Shown one piece after another: positions 5,948 through 22,399 of a stretch of 23,030 nt of DNA (position 1 is the first letter of the stretch; the number at the start of each line of letters is the position of its first letter). The notes under the pieces were generated by a model. The model saw only the letters and a list, made by a program, of their open reading frames with translations, ran no database searches and was not told the DNA's origin. Where the stretch lies: positions 1 to 23,030 of the IMG/VR virus record IMGVR_UViG_3300031964_000093; one strand, 5' to 3'. A program made the position numbers and the translations under genes. The stretch comes from a virus.

Positions 5948-6523
5948 CTAGTACAGAACGTGCGTGGTCGAAGCGTAGGCAGACCCCGGCGTGGCATTGT
6001 TGTACGACAGCGCACCCGGAATCCCAAGCCAGTTCAAAATGGTCACGTTGGCTGAGAGGCTGTTGTAGCCCGTAACAAATGTGGTGAAATTGGCGTTGGT
6101 CGCAATGCCCGCTGCTTGGCAGAACTTCGCATCACAAACAACAAGACCGCCGCCGTAGGCAGTTGCCGCTGTTGCTGCTTCCTGCAAGCCAAAGTCGCCA
6201 GAGCGAACTAGGTCGCCCTGACCGTGACCGAAGCCGAAGGCCGCAGTGATAATACAGGTTCCATAAATCGTCGGCGTGGGATTCGATACGCTGGTAGGCG
6301 TCACCGTCTCAATCGACGTTCCGCTGCCAATCGTAATCGGGATGCCAGCAACAGGCGACACAGCGCGACCATCAGGCGTGTACACCACACCCAGCGCCAG
6401 CGTGATCGCATAGGTTCCCGATGTCGGGTTTCCAGCAATAACCTGAAACGCAGGGGTTTCCGGGTTTACGCCGTAGGCATAGTTGTATGCGTTGAATTCA
6501 GCGGAATACTTCGTGAGTGCCAT
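5948..6523 (-). CDS. Probable virion protein, 191 aa, beta-rich
   Basis: The protein is rich in Thr, Ser, Gly, Ala, Asn and Tyr with few charged residues, typical of beta-sheet phage structural proteins such as decoration or tail-associated proteins. The N-terminus MALTKYSAEFNAYNYAYGVN is followed by short beta-like segments (TYAITLALGVVYTPDG, PITIGSGTSIETVTPTSV) and a hydrophobic central region. It has a good ribosome binding site (GGAGAAAAC before the ATG). Two cysteines (VVCDAKFC) sit close together. I recognise no named family; structural is inferred from composition and position. Confidence 0.55.
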   Translation of the reverse strand: MALTKYSAEFNAYNYAYGVNPETPAFQVIAGNPTSGTYAITLALGVVYTPDGRAVSPVAGIPITIGSGTSIETVTPTSVSNPTPTIYGTCIITAAFGFGHGQGDLVRSGDFGLQEAATAATAYGGGLVVCDAKFCQAAGIATNANFTTFVTGYNSLSANVTILNWLGIPGALSYNNATPGSAYASTTHVLY

Positions 6524-9556: not shown

Positions 9557-9621
9557 TTCGAATGATTGTCTAGGAATTGTCGCTCTACCTTCTCAGGGTC
9601 GAACTCAAGGGGTGCGCTCAT
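9472..9621 (-). CDS. Small ORF (49 aa) coupled to the upstream 91-aa gene
   Basis: The ATG at 9621 overlaps the preceding stop in an ATGA junction and has a strong ribosome binding site (GGAGGCAAG). The translation starts MSAPLEFDPEKVERQFLDNH, a convincing charged helix, and ends WICTARK before TAG. The beginning is more convincing than the end, and the alternative frame takes over as the better-looking protein in the second half, so a frameshift (natural, or an assembly error) is possible. Confidence 0.5.
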   Translation of the reverse strand: MSAPLEFDPEKVERQFLDNHSKWEVLAGNGSGWVLRLTSTHCWICTARK

Positions 9622-9893
9622 CTTGCCTCCAAAGTCAGTTGCGTGTTGGTCATGTCGTAGATGCGGTATTCAGGGTCAAGCGGCCAACCTAAAACGCGAT
9701 AAACCCACTTGAAAATTACGCGGTCTCCATCCTGCCAGATGCGCCAGAAGAACCAATCAGGATGCGGATAACCTTTAGAGATTACGACCCAACCGCCAAG
9801 CGAAAACGGTGCAGTATTTGTGAGTGTAATCGTTGATGTGAATTTGTCAGCCAATCCAATCGTCATTTTGACGCCAACCCATGCCGTACTCAT
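9618..9893 (-). CDS. Unknown protein, 91 aa, beta-rich
   Basis: The first half (KFTSTITLTNTAPFSLGGWV) is Thr-rich and beta-prone. The second half carries a dense Trp/Tyr/Phe cluster (PDWFFWRIWQDGDRVIFKWV), followed by a polar tail that ends in LEAR. This composition suits a small beta-sandwich virion protein. No strong ribosome binding site is seen before the ATG at 9893, and an internal start at MTIGLADKF is possible. The stop overlaps the next start (ATGA). No named family is recognised. Confidence 0.5.
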   Translation of the reverse strand: MSTAWVGVKMTIGLADKFTSTITLTNTAPFSLGGWVVISKGYPHPDWFFWRIWQDGDRVIFKWVYRVLGWPLDPEYRIYDMTNTQLTLEAR

Positions 9894-11930: not shown

Positions 11931-12066
11931 AAATTCTCCGTTTCTTAGGAGCATAAGGGCATCCCTGCGCGTGGTCGTATTCGTTGGGGAGCTTCTTCAC
12001 ACCTTTGGGCTTCATTGGTTGCGCGCAATGGCGGCATAACTTGTAAACCGGAGCATCATTGGTCAT
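11917..12066 (-). CDS. 49-aa zinc-knuckle protein
   Basis: MTNDAPVYKLCRHCAQPMKP is followed by a basic segment and HAQGCPYAPKKRR. The CxxC...H-x3-C pattern suggests a single zinc site. A strong ribosome binding site (GAGAGGAAA) lies before the ATG at 12066, and the start overlaps the TGA of an upstream broken reading frame (ATGA). The 3' end overlaps the Ead-like gene. The small size is typical of early phage micro-proteins. Confidence 0.6.
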   Translation of the reverse strand: MTNDAPVYKLCRHCAQPMKPKGVKKLPNEYDHAQGCPYAPKKRRIYDPQ

Positions 12067-12136
12067 TGGGTTTCCTCTCGGCTGCTACAAGTTGGTCAAT
12101 GCGCTGGAGAAAGTTAAGGTAATTATATACTTGACA
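12056..12136 (-). pseudogene. C-terminal remnant of a disrupted minus-strand gene
   Basis: Reading leftward, the frame gives VYNYLNFLQRIDQLVAAERK then PNDQ and TGA, a typical C-terminus of a small phage protein. It is joined to the next gene by an ATGA overlap, showing it was translated. Upstream the frame continues only into the antisense of the transposase remnant and has no proper start. The best explanation is a gene cut by insertion of the plus-strand material that begins near 12137. The exact junction is unknown. Confidence 0.45.
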
Positions 12137-12576
12137 CACAGGGAGGTTCGGAGTAGCGTAGGTACATGGACGCTCCGAACACACTCCAGCAAGCAATAGT
12201 CTACTTCTCTGACCCCGACCGGGCCTTCCAATACGCGCTGAATCTGCGCTGGCCGGATGGTCTGGTAACTTGCCCGCGCTGCGGCTCCGATAAGCACTCA
12301 TTCGTGAAGACCCGCCGACTCTGGCACTGCAAGGGCTGTAAAAAGCAGTTCACCCTCAAAGTCGGCACAGTGTTCGAGGATAGCCCGCTGGGACTCGACA
12401 AATGGATGTGTGCGTTTTGGATGCTCTGTAATTGCAGGAATGGAGTCAGTTCGTGTGAGGTCGCCCGCGCTCTGGATATCACGCAAAAATCGGCTTGGTT
12501 CTTGCTTCATAGAATCCGCGAGGCCATGACCGATAAGACTGGAACGAAGCTCGGCAATGTTGGCCCTGTCGAAGTA
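12130..12576 (+). mobile_element. IS1595-family insertion sequence remnant (approximate limits)
   Basis: The element is defined by its transposase. Recognisable homology runs from the ATG at 12166 to about 12576, where the family's DDE catalytic domain should begin. No convincing terminal inverted repeats or 8-base target duplication were found, so the limits are guesses. A TTGACA (12131-12136) with a weak -10 (TAGCGT) could be the transposase promoter. The right half of the element appears to be missing. Confidence 0.5.
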
Positions 12577-12603
12577 TTCGTGTTTCATAATGGCCTCACC
12601 TAA
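12166..12603 (+). pseudogene. Truncated IS1595-type transposase (zinc ribbon and HTH, no DDE domain)
   Basis: The 145-aa product opens MDAPNTLQQAIVYFSDPDRA, followed by the zinc ribbon CPRCGS...CKGCKKQFTLKVGT (Pfam 'Zn_Tnp_IS1595' type), then the conserved FEDSPLGLDKW and the helix-turn-helix ITQKSAWFLLHRIREAM. Full-length relatives have about 300 residues and continue GPVEVDE..GG into the DDE catalytic core. Here the match stops at GPVEV (about codon 137) and eight unrelated residues lead to TAA. It therefore cannot transpose. It could still bind DNA. It sits in plus orientation inside an otherwise minus-strand block. Confidence 0.8.
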
Positions 12604-12614
12604 GAGGATAGACC

Positions 12615-13781
12615 ATGCCGTTAGAAGGCGACGATCATAAAGATAATGCCAGCGATACTGCCCACCAGATAGCCTCCAACCAAGGCGGCGAATCCGGCTC
12701 CGGCTTGCCGCCCGCTGCTGGCCCTGCGAATCCGCCACCACCCCCACCCAGCGAGAATCATGCCGCCAACGGCTCCAATCAGTGGCGCGAGAATACCAAA
12801 CTTGGCCTTGAGATAGGCGGCTTGTTTATCTTGCTTATTTACACTGTGTTCTCCGCGCTCCAATGGGCGCAGATTCGCTGGACCAATCGCCTGACTAGAG
12901 AAGCTCTGGACGGGAACAACTCGGCTCTCCAGCAGACTCTTGGAAGAATGGATTGGCAGGCGCAGGAAACTCACGAAATAGCTAAACAAACTCTCACGCA
13001 ACAACTCCAGACCACCAAAATTGCGAATGAGACGCATGACCTCGCCATTGCCACCAGAAGCGAGGCCGGAGCCGCTGAGAGCGCGGCTGGTACTGCTGCT
13101 GCCGAACTCACTATGTCGAATCGTCCGTGGGTATCCGTTGAGGTAGAAATTGTCGGGCCGCTCACTCATGTGATGTGGCCGGGAACGGGCGGAGAGTTCC
13201 TTCAATTGCCTTTGAAGTTTCACTACAAAAACACGGGAAGAACGCCGGCCTTGGCTGTAACTTCCGATGCGCGGATTATCCAGACCAGATTCGGATATTC
13301 TCCAGGACTCAAGGACGATGCCACCCTGAGCGATTCCAGGAGTTTTGCTAGGGGTGGAAAGTCTATCCCGGGAACAAATTCCGGTGCCGAACTGCGAGAT
13401 GTTTGCAAATCGGGGATTAGTCCCACCAAAGTACGTCAGATGGATGGGCTCAACTGGGGAAGATTGTTGGCTGGCGACGGAGGCTCCTACGATGACTTCA
13501 TCAACATTCAAACCCCGCTGACCCAATTTGATCGCGCTGGTCTTACTCTGAAGGGACGCGTGTCCGATGTTCCCATGCCTCTTACCGTAGTGGTCTGCAC
13601 CTCCTACAGAGCTACCTTCAACGATGACACTCATCAAGTCGGAGGGGTCTACATATTGGGACGAAGGGATCCTGCAAGTCCGGGTGGGATGGATGGCATT
13701 AACCCCTTCGACAAGACTCCAATCCTTCCCAAGGATTTGGGTTGGATGCGGAGCGTAGCCAATGCGGGATTTTCTAACTAA
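12615..13781 (+). CDS. Membrane-anchored 388-aa protein of a widespread unknown family (accessory/cargo gene)
   Basis: Residues 1-55 are disordered, with a PPPPPPSE run near 40-47. Residues ~65-85 (GLEIGGLFILLIYTVFSALQW) are one transmembrane helix. Residues ~90-155 form a Thr/Gln/Ala-rich coiled coil, and a domain opening NRPWVSVEVEIVGPL follows, with LKFHYKNTGRTPAL and LTVVVCTSYRATFNDDTHQV. This TM, coil and 'RPWVSV...KNTG.TPA' plan is common among bacterial membrane proteins of unknown function and unlike the phage head genes. The ribosome binding site AAGAGGAT is well placed. It lies 39 bases after the transposase remnant and against the direction of its neighbours, so it was probably imported. 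Its codons from the fourth onward avoid TTA, CTA and TCA, leaving a long codon-aligned antisense ORF. Confidence 0.8.
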   Translation: MPLEGDDHKDNASDTAHQIASNQGGESGSGLPPAAGPANPPPPPPSENHAANGSNQWRENTKLGLEIGGLFILLIYTVFSALQWAQIRWTNRLTREALDGNNSALQQTLGRMDWQAQETHEIAKQTLTQQLQTTKIANETHDLAIATRSEAGAAESAAGTAAAELTMSNRPWVSVEVEIVGPLTHVMWPGTGGEFLQLPLKFHYKNTGRTPALAVTSDARIIQTRFGYSPGLKDDATLSDSRSFARGGKSIPGTNSGAELRDVCKSGISPTKVRQMDGLNWGRLLAGDGGSYDDFINIQTPLTQFDRAGLTLKGRVSDVPMPLTVVVCTSYRATFNDDTHQVGGVYILGRRDPASPGGMDGINPFDKTPILPKDLGWMRSVANAGFSN

Positions 13782-14126
13782 TCCTGCAAGCGCAACCCCA
13801 ATAAGCACACACAGCAAAAGCACTAGCCCTGTCACGGCAAACCCAGCATGACCTAAAGAGGCTTGTGCGTCAAGTATATGTTTACCAAAGTTAAGCCGCG
13901 CAGTCGGGCGTCCTTCAACTTTTCCGCCTAAACGAGCCACGGCCATATTCAGCACGCCATCACGCATCGCAAGCTCCGATTCAAGCGGCCCTAGAACCTT
14001 CTCGGATTGGGCAAGAATATGCTCGTAAATGCGGTTGTACTGATGAACCGTGAGATCGAGCGACAGATTTACTTCGTGCATGATGCTTTCAGTAAGTCTT
14101 CCTGCGGTCGTGTTTGGCGTTTCCAT
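12621..14126 (-). CDS. Membrane protein, N-terminal ~115 codons credible; remainder is antisense read-through
   Basis: The ATG at 14126 has a good ribosome binding site (GGAG, 6 bases before). The first ~115 residues are convincing: METPNTTAGRLTESIMHEVN, a long helix to about residue 90, then one transmembrane segment (VTGLVLLLCVLIGVALAG). From about 13781 leftward the frame lies exactly opposite the 388-aa plus-strand gene, codon on codon, and loses protein character. The last ~65 residues again look like two membrane helices (LIGAVGGMILAGWGWW, then GGYLVGSIAGIIFMIVAF). However, antisense of a polar D/N/H/Q/E-rich stretch naturally reads as hydrophobic. Most likely this is a real gene truncated by the plus-strand insertion, with stop-free read-through to 12621. 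Confidence 0.45.
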   Translation of the reverse strand: METPNTTAGRLTESIMHEVNLSLDLTVHQYNRIYEHILAQSEKVLGPLESELAMRDGVLNMAVARLGGKVEGRPTARLNFGKHILDAQASLGHAGFAVTGLVLLLCVLIGVALAGLVRKSRIGYAPHPTQILGKDWSLVEGVNAIHPTRTCRIPSSQYVDPSDLMSVIVEGSSVGGADHYGKRHGNIGHASLQSKTSAIKLGQRGLNVDEVIVGASVASQQSSPVEPIHLTYFGGTNPRFANISQFGTGICSRDRLSTPSKTPGIAQGGIVLESWRISESGLDNPRIGSYSQGRRSSRVFVVKLQRQLKELSARSRPHHMSERPDNFYLNGYPRTIRHSEFGSSSTSRALSGSGLASGGNGEVMRLIRNFGGLELLRESLFSYFVSFLRLPIHSSKSLLESRVVPVQSFSSQAIGPANLRPLERGEHSVNKQDKQAAYLKAKFGILAPLIGAVGGMILAGWGWWRIRRASSGRQAGAGFAALVGGYLVGSIAGIIFMIVAF

Positions 14127-14147
14127 TTTCTACTCCATTCTCCGCGT

Positions 14148-14336
14148 CTATCGTGGTTTGGTTTCCAGCTTTAGCAGGGCAACTCGCACTACACGCAGCT
14201 TGCGTCGAATCTTCACGCCGCGCAGAACTTCCTCTGCACGCTCGCGGTTCTTGAATATCGCAAACTGCCCATCAAAGGCTAGGTAATCGCCGTTCTTGTC
14301 TACGATGCCATGCGGCTCTATTTTCTCGCTGCTCAT
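14148..14336 (-). CDS. Small basic protein, 62 aa
   Basis: I chose the second in-frame ATG (14336, MSSEKIEPHGIVDKNGDYLA) because AAGGAG is 8 bases upstream, whereas the first ATG (14342) is only 2 bases from it. The product has a beta-like first half (YLAFDGQFAIFKNRERAEEV) and a strongly basic tail (KIRRKLRVVRVALLKLETK). It resembles short phage proteins carrying a display-then-modify beta-alpha unit, but no family is named. It lies between the deoxyribosyltransferase-like gene and the membrane protein in the leftward block. Confidence 0.6.
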   Translation of the reverse strand: MSSEKIEPHGIVDKNGDYLAFDGQFAIFKNRERAEEVLRGVKIRRKLRVVRVALLKLETKPR

Positions 14337-14353
14337 ACCCATTACTCCTTGCC

Positions 14354-14806
14354 TCAGCTACAGTCCACATTCAACCAAACCTCGATAGCGCTCCATCGCG
14401 TGGTTACGATATCTGCCATCTTCACCATGAGGTCAGGTTCTCGCGTTCCCGGAATGTATGCTGCGACGAGCCGGCCTGCACCTACCGCATACCCCATTTC
14501 CATGCTTGCACTTGGGCCGCACGGCATGACCATGATGCAGCAATCCGCACGCTTCAACGCATCCATATCTCGGTTGAACCCTTCGATGGCTAACGGATGC
14601 GAGAGTGCCGCGACATACTCTGCTGGCGTCCAGTTCTGCCAGTTGGGGTCGATGAACCTCCACCCAAAGCCACCCTCTCCCTCTGCCGCGCTCCAACCAT
14701 CCCCACCAGCCTTGAAGTCATAAACCTCATGTCCTAAACCACGAAGCTTTGCCACGACCTCTTGCTGGAATGTGTTGCGCCACGAACTAGCAACGTAAAT
14801 CTTCAT
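14354..14806 (-). CDS. Nucleoside 2-deoxyribosyltransferase-like protein
   Basis: The family cleaves or exchanges the glycosidic bond between a base and deoxyribose and shares its fold with some nucleotide-processing and phage-encoded enzymes. The 150-aa length is typical. It opens MKIYVASSWRN (the first strand and loop of the Rossmann-like fold). An acidic Asp-rich centre (NRDMDALKRADCCIMVMP) precedes GPSASMEMGYAVGAG (~residues 98-112), which matches the catalytic-Glu segment S-x-x-x-E-x-G-x-A. CAGGAG lies before the ATG. Next leftward is a 62-aa gene; to the right is the HTH regulator. Likely roles are nucleotide salvage, base modification or signal-nucleotide degradation, not distinguishable here. 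Confidence 0.75.
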   Translation of the reverse strand: MKIYVASSWRNTFQQEVVAKLRGLGHEVYDFKAGGDGWSAAEGEGGFGWRFIDPNWQNWTPAEYVAALSHPLAIEGFNRDMDALKRADCCIMVMPCGPSASMEMGYAVGAGRLVAAYIPGTREPDLMVKMADIVTTRWSAIEVWLNVDCS

Positions 14807-21785: not shown

Positions 21786-22082
21786 ATGGCAACCAAGAAA
21801 AACAAATACGTGATCGTTCGCACTTACTCTGCGGGCGTATTCGCTGGCAATCTCGAATCCCGCGCAGGGCAAGAGGTTGTTCTGACCGATGCACGCCGTC
21901 TGTGGTATTGGACTGGCGCTGCATCTCTCTCGCAACTCGCTGTATCGGGAACTTCTTCCCCAAAAACCTGCAAGTTTCCTACTCCTGTTCCGCGCGTTGA
22001 ATTGCTCCAGGCAATTGAAATCCTCGACGTAACGCCGGACGCCGAGAAATCCATCAAGGAAGTGCCAGAGTGGAAGCAGTAG
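21786..22082 (+). CDS. DUF6948-like phage protein, 98 aa
   Basis: The product reads MATKKNKYVIVRTYSAGVFA, then LESRAGQEVVLTDARRLWYW, GAASLSQLAVSGTSS and ends near SIKEVPEWKQ. These segments (YVIVRTYSAGVFAG...RRLWYW.GAASLSQLA) are the recognisable core of DUF6948, a small domain common in tailed phages. AAGGA lies before the ATG. The following Gly-rich repeat gene overlaps its 3' end by 13 bases. The function is not known to me. Confidence 0.75.
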   Translation: MATKKNKYVIVRTYSAGVFAGNLESRAGQEVVLTDARRLWYWTGAASLSQLAVSGTSSPKTCKFPTPVPRVELLQAIEILDVTPDAEKSIKEVPEWKQ

Positions 22083-22399
22083 ACCAAAAAGTGGGCTCCG
22101 GCTCCGGCTCCGGCTCCGGCTACGGCGACGGCTACGGCGACGGCTACGGCGACGGCTACGGCTCCGGCTCCGGCTCCGGCGACGGCTACGGCTCCGGCTC
22201 CGGCGACGGCTACGGCTCCGGCTCCGGCTCCGGCTACGGCTCCGGCTACGGCTCCGGCTACGGCTACGGCTACGGCTACGGCGACGGCTCCGGCTACGGC
22301 TCCGGCTACGGCGACGGCGACGGCTCCGGCTACGGCTACGGCGACGGCTCCGGCTACGGCTCCGGCTACGGCGACGGCGACGGCTCCGGCAGGGGTTAA
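22070..22399 (+). CDS. Glycine dipeptide-repeat protein (GSG/GYG/GDG), 109 aa
   Basis: After V/MEAVDQKV the protein is ~49 dipeptides of Gly-Ser, Gly-Tyr or Gly-Asp and ends G-R-G-stop. Every codon pair is GGC plus TCC, TAC or GAC, so the DNA is a hexanucleotide repeat (22094-22387). The GTG start at 22070 has AAGGAAG upstream and overlaps the DUF6948-like gene. No signal peptide or Lys-rich segment is present. Such low-complexity Gly-Tyr-Ser-Asp sequences are disordered and can self-associate; elastin- or resilin-like behaviour, or phase separation, is a guess. A strong terminator starts 7 bases after the stop. Confidence 0.7.
   Translation: MEAVDQKVGSGSGSGSGYGDGYGDGYGDGYGSGSGSGDGYGSGSGDGYGSGSGSGYGSGYGSGYGYGYGYGDGSGYGSGYGDGDGSGYGYGDGSGYGSGYGDGDGSGRG
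22271..22390 (+). repeat. Exact 60-bp tandem duplication inside the Gly-rich gene
   Basis: The 60 bases at 22271-22330 are repeated identically at 22331-22390, encoding a 20-residue unit (YGYGDGSGYGSGYGDGDGSG) twice. The upstream part of the gene is the same hexamer alphabet in a different order. This suggests recent expansion by slippage or unequal recombination. Confidence 0.9.

Follow-up and report, generated by a model that had tools for sequence, protein, structure and literature searches.

How did two plus-strand genes, the remnant of a transposase gene and a gene for a membrane protein, come to lie among the minus-strand genes of a phage? They are found in a 23-kb IMG/VR virus record (IMGVR_UViG_3300031964_000093) that carries terminase, head and exonuclease genes and whose hosts are probably soil acidobacteria; the whole stretch of 23,030 nucleotides that was analysed is called the window here. 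A sequence-only reading of this DNA had described a plus-strand block inside minus-strand phage genes, as the two open reading frames indeed form (Table 1), had placed its limits at 12130-13785 and had advised a search for terminal inverted repeats (TIRs) and an 8-bp target duplication. Both signals were recovered by a scripted search, and the block is real but extends further than first drawn, the insertion spanning 12118-13886 (1769 bp) and enclosing both plus-strand reading frames. The TIRs are 22 bp long, identical at 19 of 22 positions, and have the GG ends (GGTAA...) known from the IS1595 family, while the duplication AAAGTTAA has the 8-bp length of that family and is perfect (8/8) on both sides. 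The next-best TIR candidate within the 23-kb window reaches 14/22, which leaves the 12118/13886 pair far ahead. The search set as a whole contained 45 exact 8-bp duplications, with an A/T fraction of 0.69. The block is one insertion and not the outcome of separate gene gains.

The insertion interrupts a gene that belongs to the accessory set of a tailed phage. When the flanks are closed at a single target site, an uninterrupted 97-aa reading frame results (METPNTTAGR...TARLNF followed by LQRIDQLVAAERKPNDQ), and the earlier claim that the flanking minus-strand genes are cut is thereby upheld: the gene starting at 14126 enters the element, and a start is lacking from the fragment that ends at 12056. 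A twin contig, IMGVR_UViG_3300030687_000079, carries the same insertion with both junctions free of mismatches and 0 mismatches over 12.7 kb; because the insertion recurs in a second contig, it is not an artefact of a single assembly. The sole difference noted between the two contigs is a 14-nt indel at window 9786-9799, inside the reading frame at 9618-9893. Two sister phages, L089 and L090, whose terL genes are 98% identical to that of the window, show only 66 bp in place of window positions 12083-14802; the whole tract is absent from them, and the C-terminal AERKPNDQ of the interrupted gene is kept in both. The insertion therefore sits in a variable accessory tract. The comparison with a related phage lacking the block, which the sequence-only reading had proposed, showed both sister phages to be without the insertion but did not yield the uninterrupted gene: a search of the viral contigs for an exact empty site with the joined 97-aa protein returned the twin contig alone. 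Elsewhere in the window, near its right end (22070-22399), lies a highly repetitive Gly-Ser-Tyr-Asp reading frame (GSGSGYGDGYG...).

Table 1. Features of the inserted element, the phage gene that it interrupts and the related micro-ORFs (window positions unless a locus is named)
Feature	Position	Strand	Sequence or basis
Interrupted phage gene, 3' part	12056-12109	-	LQRIDQLVAAERKPNDQ + stop; in-frame join with 5' part
Target-site duplication, left copy, 8 bp	12110-12117		AAAGTTAA; duplication search
Left terminal inverted repeat	12118-12139		GGTAATTATATACTTGACACAC; 19/22 vs right TIR; shared by dozens of IS1595 elements
Promoter-like pair, embedded in TIR, into stub	12131-12159	+	TTGACA-N17-TAGCGT; shared pattern, 34 elements
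IS1595 transposase stub, 145 aa, zinc ribbon + N-terminal region	12166-12603	+	PF12760, NF033547 partial
Internal deletion junction, transposase (left) / passenger-side intergenic DNA (right)	12562-12576		alignment to L123
Micro-ORF remnant	12574-12588	-	MKHEY; MKHEYHEGPEA... in L123 + 37 further distinct relatives
Passenger, 388 aa, membrane-anchored	12615-13781	+	homologs in TIR-bounded bacterial elements; AF2 model
Distal motif, 47 bp past passenger stop	13828-13837		CCGTGACAGG on minus strand
Right terminal inverted repeat	13865-13886		GGTAAACATATACTTGACGCAC (minus-strand reading); pairs with left TIR
Target-site duplication, right copy	13887-13894		AAAGTTAA; duplication search
Interrupted phage gene, 5' part, right target copy included	13887-14126	-	METPNTTAGR...PTARLNF
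Micro-ORF examples	L123:5021-5158; L087:1112-1249; L083:2219-2359; L076:2208-2348

Elements of the parent kind occur in Terriglobia MAGs, where they measure 2-3.4 kb and combine 8-bp duplications with an intact IS1595 transposase, a micro-ORF and membrane passengers. The element L087 from a Terriglobus MAG, with the target duplication CTTTTTAC, encodes an intact 309-aa transposase and, on the same strand, a passenger homologous to that of the window (tblastn 4e-23). The transposase of L123/L105 is intact and shares 63% identity with the L076 reference, and the passenger frame of this element, 364 aa long, shares 32% with that of the window; the TIRs of L123/L105 are present, and its outer 8-mers differ. 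Both L123 and L087 share with the window element the same TIRs, the gene order and a homologous, co-oriented passenger, but they retain an intact DDE transposase and the micro-ORF, and their passengers are only 26-32% identical to the window's.

The transposase of the window element had been described as an IS1595-type enzyme broken before its DDE domain, and profile searches agree. The stub matches the PF12760 zinc ribbon, a hallmark of the IS1595 family, with E=8.3e-16 and the IS1595 model NF033547 partially (7.8e-12), and the catalytic domain DDE_Tnp_IS1595 (PF12762) is absent from it; the intact relatives L076, L083 and L087 contain both PF12760 and PF12762. Residues 1-139 of the stub are 72% identical to the intact transposase of L076. 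The points at which the transposase is truncated vary among stubs (residue 139 in the window, 153 and 232 in others), and this variation led to rejection of the notion that truncation at the start of the DDE domain is a selected design.

Alignment to L123, the closest parent, locates the deletion. Element positions 1-402 correspond to the transposase end of L123 (74% nucleotide identity), and element positions 445-494 to L123 element positions 1127-1176, just before the passenger (88% identity), with about 0.68 kb missing relative to this parent. Lost are the transposase codons from about 137 onward, the micro-ORF except for five codons (MKHEY) and most of the intergenic DNA. GGCCCT occurs at the window junction and again in the flank of L123 on the passenger side, which suggests that the deletion arose via this short repeat. 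That the loss of the transposase C-terminus is a secondary deletion follows from L087 and L123, which pair the same passenger family with an intact transposase. The sequence-only reading had envisaged one insertion with a passenger gene, followed by loss of the transposase C-terminus; the insertion and the loss are both borne out, the loss having come either before or after the insertion, but the deletion also removed most of the micro-ORF and of the intergenic DNA. Its statement that the passenger begins 39 bases later holds for the distance from the junction (~12576) to the passenger ATG, but not for the stub, whose stop codon lies 11 bp before that ATG.

The micro-ORF, of which the window keeps a remnant, encodes 46-60 aa and is convergent to the IS1595 transposase in Terriglobia (L123, L087, L083, L076 and relatives). 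Its consensus, MKxPEYxEGPEAxxxFExGMxxLFKVPK followed by a basic tail, contains ten invariant columns (n=10 aligned), and the 38 distinct proteins show purifying selection, with a median dN/dS of 0.39 and values below 1 in 98.7% of 153 pairs. No match was found in Pfam or NCBIfam. Across 298 genomes of the order to which the L087 genome belongs, the micro-ORF has 42 matches, 21 of which lie at most 2.5 kb from a TIR match, against an expectation of about 0.02. Neither the micro-ORF nor the membrane-passenger family was found described in the literature searched, in which subscription journals were covered to a limited extent.

The two ends of these elements are not equivalent. In 34 transposase-bearing elements, TTGACA is found mostly in the TIR at the transposase end, with TA...T exactly 17 bp further on; the TA..T score has a mean of 2.74 out of 3 at this spacer and of 0.3-1.6 at other spacers, and the distal-end TIRs mostly read TTGACG and have no -10. 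The window element retains this asymmetry, its -10 (TAGCGT) being a weak match. Only 11 bp separate the passenger from the stub, so its transcription probably starts at the promoter of the left TIR. The distal motif CCGTGACAGG is matched at 9 or more of 10 positions near the distal end of 10 of the 34 elements, never near the transposase end, and accompanies most members of the co-directional passenger family. L083, L087 and L105 could also encode a small membrane peptide in antisense at their distal end (MRLRDRA...); this candidate was set aside, its frame not being kept in the window.

The passenger protein consists of a disordered, Pro-rich N-terminus, a TM helix, a coiled coil and a beta domain with the motif 'RPW...NxGxxPA'. 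An AF2 model from 20 sequences predicts the disordered N-terminus, a helix at residues 57-100 that includes the hydrophobic stretch, a coiled-coil helix at 102-168 and the beta domain, at a mean pLDDT of 63 with the best blocks at 85-94. Ten bacterial elements (L083, L087, L123, L138, L140, L221, L226, L228, L236, L240) carry co-directional passengers of this family, a grouping that is built from pairwise matches of varying strength and in which some members, L221 and L228 for example, reach the window's protein through other members alone; further elements carry convergent proteins from other families, most of them with a predicted TM segment. Of the 298 genomes screened for the micro-ORF, 17 have passenger homologs, at 20 loci in all; five of these loci have IS1595 ends, a transposase or the micro-ORF, and the rest are without such ends.

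The top structure match in the viral library (Foldseek 3.7e-9) was gp054 (L7TMN9) of Rhizobium phage RHEph01, a transmembrane protein whose beta domain is homologous by sequence as well (BLASTP 1e-7; hhalign probability 97.6%). Like the passenger, gp054 combines the beta domain of the family with hydrophobic segments; unlike the passenger, it is a stand-alone gene located two genes after terL, and no transposase is annotated in RHEph01. Among viral contigs, the twin contig alone had a close relative of the passenger, and tblastn searches of phage records and plasmids recovered no close relatives. Comparison with Pfam, PHROGs, NCBIfam and PDB profiles gave nothing useful; the PADLOC defence families did not match the window's passenger and reached E about 0.02 with single other members of the family. 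A Kir-channel cytoplasmic-domain fold was dismissed, as the PDB fold search was too weak (E about 0.01, TM 0.16). The best guess, with a likelihood somewhat short of even, is that the passenger is a moron-like, envelope-acting gene that benefits the phage or the lysogen; that it is a superinfection exclusion protein specifically is distinctly unlikely.

The TIR pattern was found at 50 loci in viral contigs, 16 of them complete elements (7/8 or 8/8 flanking duplications, the window's element counted), and at 27 loci in bacterial contigs, with 9 complete elements, mostly in acidobacterial MAGs. By scans whose patterns differed in strictness, an intact transposase was present in 2/16 viral versus 8/9 bacterial elements (Fisher p=3e-4), and the median element length was 615 bp versus 2242 bp (p=0.007); when the viral set is restricted to elements in which one TIR or both fit the strict pattern in full, the proportion with an intact transposase is 0/8, versus the same 8/9 for the bacterial ones. 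Of ten flanking genes, taken one per viral contig, seven have matches to an Erf-like annealing protein or to PHROG families for tail, head, lysis or packaging. This excess of transposase-less elements in viral contigs provides a testable case for trans-mobilisation into phages.

Several individual loci in the viral contigs deserve a description of their own. At L048:5260-7779, TIRs enclose an IS1595 element whose transposase is intact and whose cargo is a restriction-modification system, composed of a DNA methylase and an MvaI/BcnI-type restriction endonuclease. The same TIRs are present at L059:4609-5372 and 6089-6363, L046:1404-1688 and L055:1702-1946, and these three contigs contain MITE-sized elements (245-285 bp) with exact 8-bp duplications; in L059, two elements, 511 bp and 245 bp long, adjoin, with the same 8-mer AAAGGCAG at the outer edges and between them. 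L024:6092-6796, on a second phage contig, which has terL, combines the micro-ORF with a gene for a small TM protein and a single TIR, with no transposase within the locus. L041:11757-13934, on a viral contig with a portal gene, holds a 163-aa transposase stub and a DUF3800 passenger inside TIRs flanked by the duplication CCTGCCTC, and a related convergent cargo protein is carried by L037.

The structural account that emerges from these data, namely insertion of an IS1595 passenger transposon, interruption of a phage gene, the architecture of the parent and the deletion junction, is one in which we have high confidence. The element came from a lineage of passenger-carrying IS1595 transposons ('transporter IS') in acidobacteria; ordinary DDE transposition brought it into an accessory gene of the tailed phage and duplicated 8 bp there. 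An internal deletion of ~0.68 kb, which preceded or followed this insertion, took away the DDE domain, most of the intergenic DNA and almost the entire micro-ORF. The outcome is a non-autonomous cassette with intact TIRs, a zinc-ribbon stub and an intact passenger 11 bp behind it. A pre-deleted donor copy was not found in 399 genomes of the class, nor was a second copy of the deleted form in these genomes or in the viral contigs, so that the mobility of this form stays putative.

Two rival readings can be set aside with near certainty. Phage accessory tracts are mosaic, and the sister phages differ in precisely this tract, so two unrelated plus-strand genes might have been acquired separately between the minus-strand genes; this is refuted by the enclosure of both genes within one TIR pair and one target duplication, and by the same gene pair inside the TIRs of bacterial elements. 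Equally improbable is a chimeric assembly of a bacterial element with a phage contig, an idea prompted by the metagenomic origin of the contigs: both junctions recur without mismatch in 3300030687_000079, and assembly errors do not produce target duplications around matched TIRs.

For the present state of the inserted element, two further readings compete, and both strike us as rather doubtful. The deleted form could be a working mobile insertion cassette (MIC) on which IS1595 transposases of the host act in trans, the zinc-ribbon stub regulating them or competing with them at the TIRs. Its TIRs match the consensus fully, its target duplication is perfect, and the stub has an open frame with 72% identity to an intact relative; moreover, relatives of 245-789 bp in other viral contigs have no intact transposase and yet are flanked by exact 8-bp duplications, which makes trans-mobilisation likely in this IS1595 group. 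Against this stands that the deleted form is known from one insertion only, and that stub ends at residues 139, 153 and 232 fit random deletion better than a selected domain. Conversely, the whole block may be dead DNA, an insertion in a dispensable phage gene whose passenger and stub are decaying. The loss of the transposase fits such decay, as does the position of the site in a tract absent from L089/L090 and its occurrence in one phage lineage only, but the 388-aa passenger frame is fully open and keeps RPW and NxGxxPA (a single sequence, from which no dN/dS can be obtained), and an unrelated phage has a homolog of the passenger.

The preferred account of an inserted and internally deleted IS1595 transposon offers a base-level case of a host transposon that brought a membrane-protein gene into a phage and ended up non-autonomous. 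It also exposes an under-described group of Terriglobia transposons with a micro-ORF and a recurrent family of membrane passengers that is found stand-alone in another phage as well. We suggest, tentatively and as a conjecture that we hold to be less probable than not, that acidobacterial IS1595 elements are distinct cargo transposons with a TIR promoter for the transposase, a convergent micro-protein and a membrane-anchored effector as the standard passenger, and that phages gain transposase-less derivatives because the passenger benefits the phage or the lysogen, so that envelope-acting genes would be shipped between bacteria and phages.

Members of the IS1595 family duplicate 8 bp and combine a zinc ribbon with a DDE domain, and the ends of relatives are GG (PMC8101967, PMC12561309). 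ISApl4 (PMC12561309) resembles the window element as a member of this family with GG ends and A/T-rich 8-bp target duplications, but it has 14-bp TIRs, belongs to the IS1016 subgroup and has no passenger within a single copy. The earlier remark that IS1595 elements are known to carry passengers agrees with the literature: insertion sequences with passengers are termed 'transporter IS' (tIS), a name for which PMC3129680 cites Siguier, Gagnevin and Chandler 2009; known examples include tISCpe8 and MTnSag1 (PMC5704250). Like a transporter IS, the window element has TIRs, an 8-bp duplication, a zinc-ribbon transposase and, inside the TIRs of a single element, a gene unrelated to transposition; unlike a transporter IS, it resides in a phage and, its DDE domain being deleted, has no functional transposase of its own. 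Its passenger is a membrane protein, whereas the known cargo of transporter ISs serves resistance or mobilisation, and its parents differ from known transporter ISs by the extra conserved, convergent micro-ORF. Transposase-less cassettes (MICs) such as IS231-MIC231 are an established idea (PMC3129680), and the window element shares with them a TIR-bounded passenger without a working transposase that is in principle movable in trans, but it differs in the retained transposase stub and in that its mobility in trans is only putative. The window element is hence a non-autonomous deletion derivative of an IS1595 'transporter IS' that stands close to a mobile insertion cassette.
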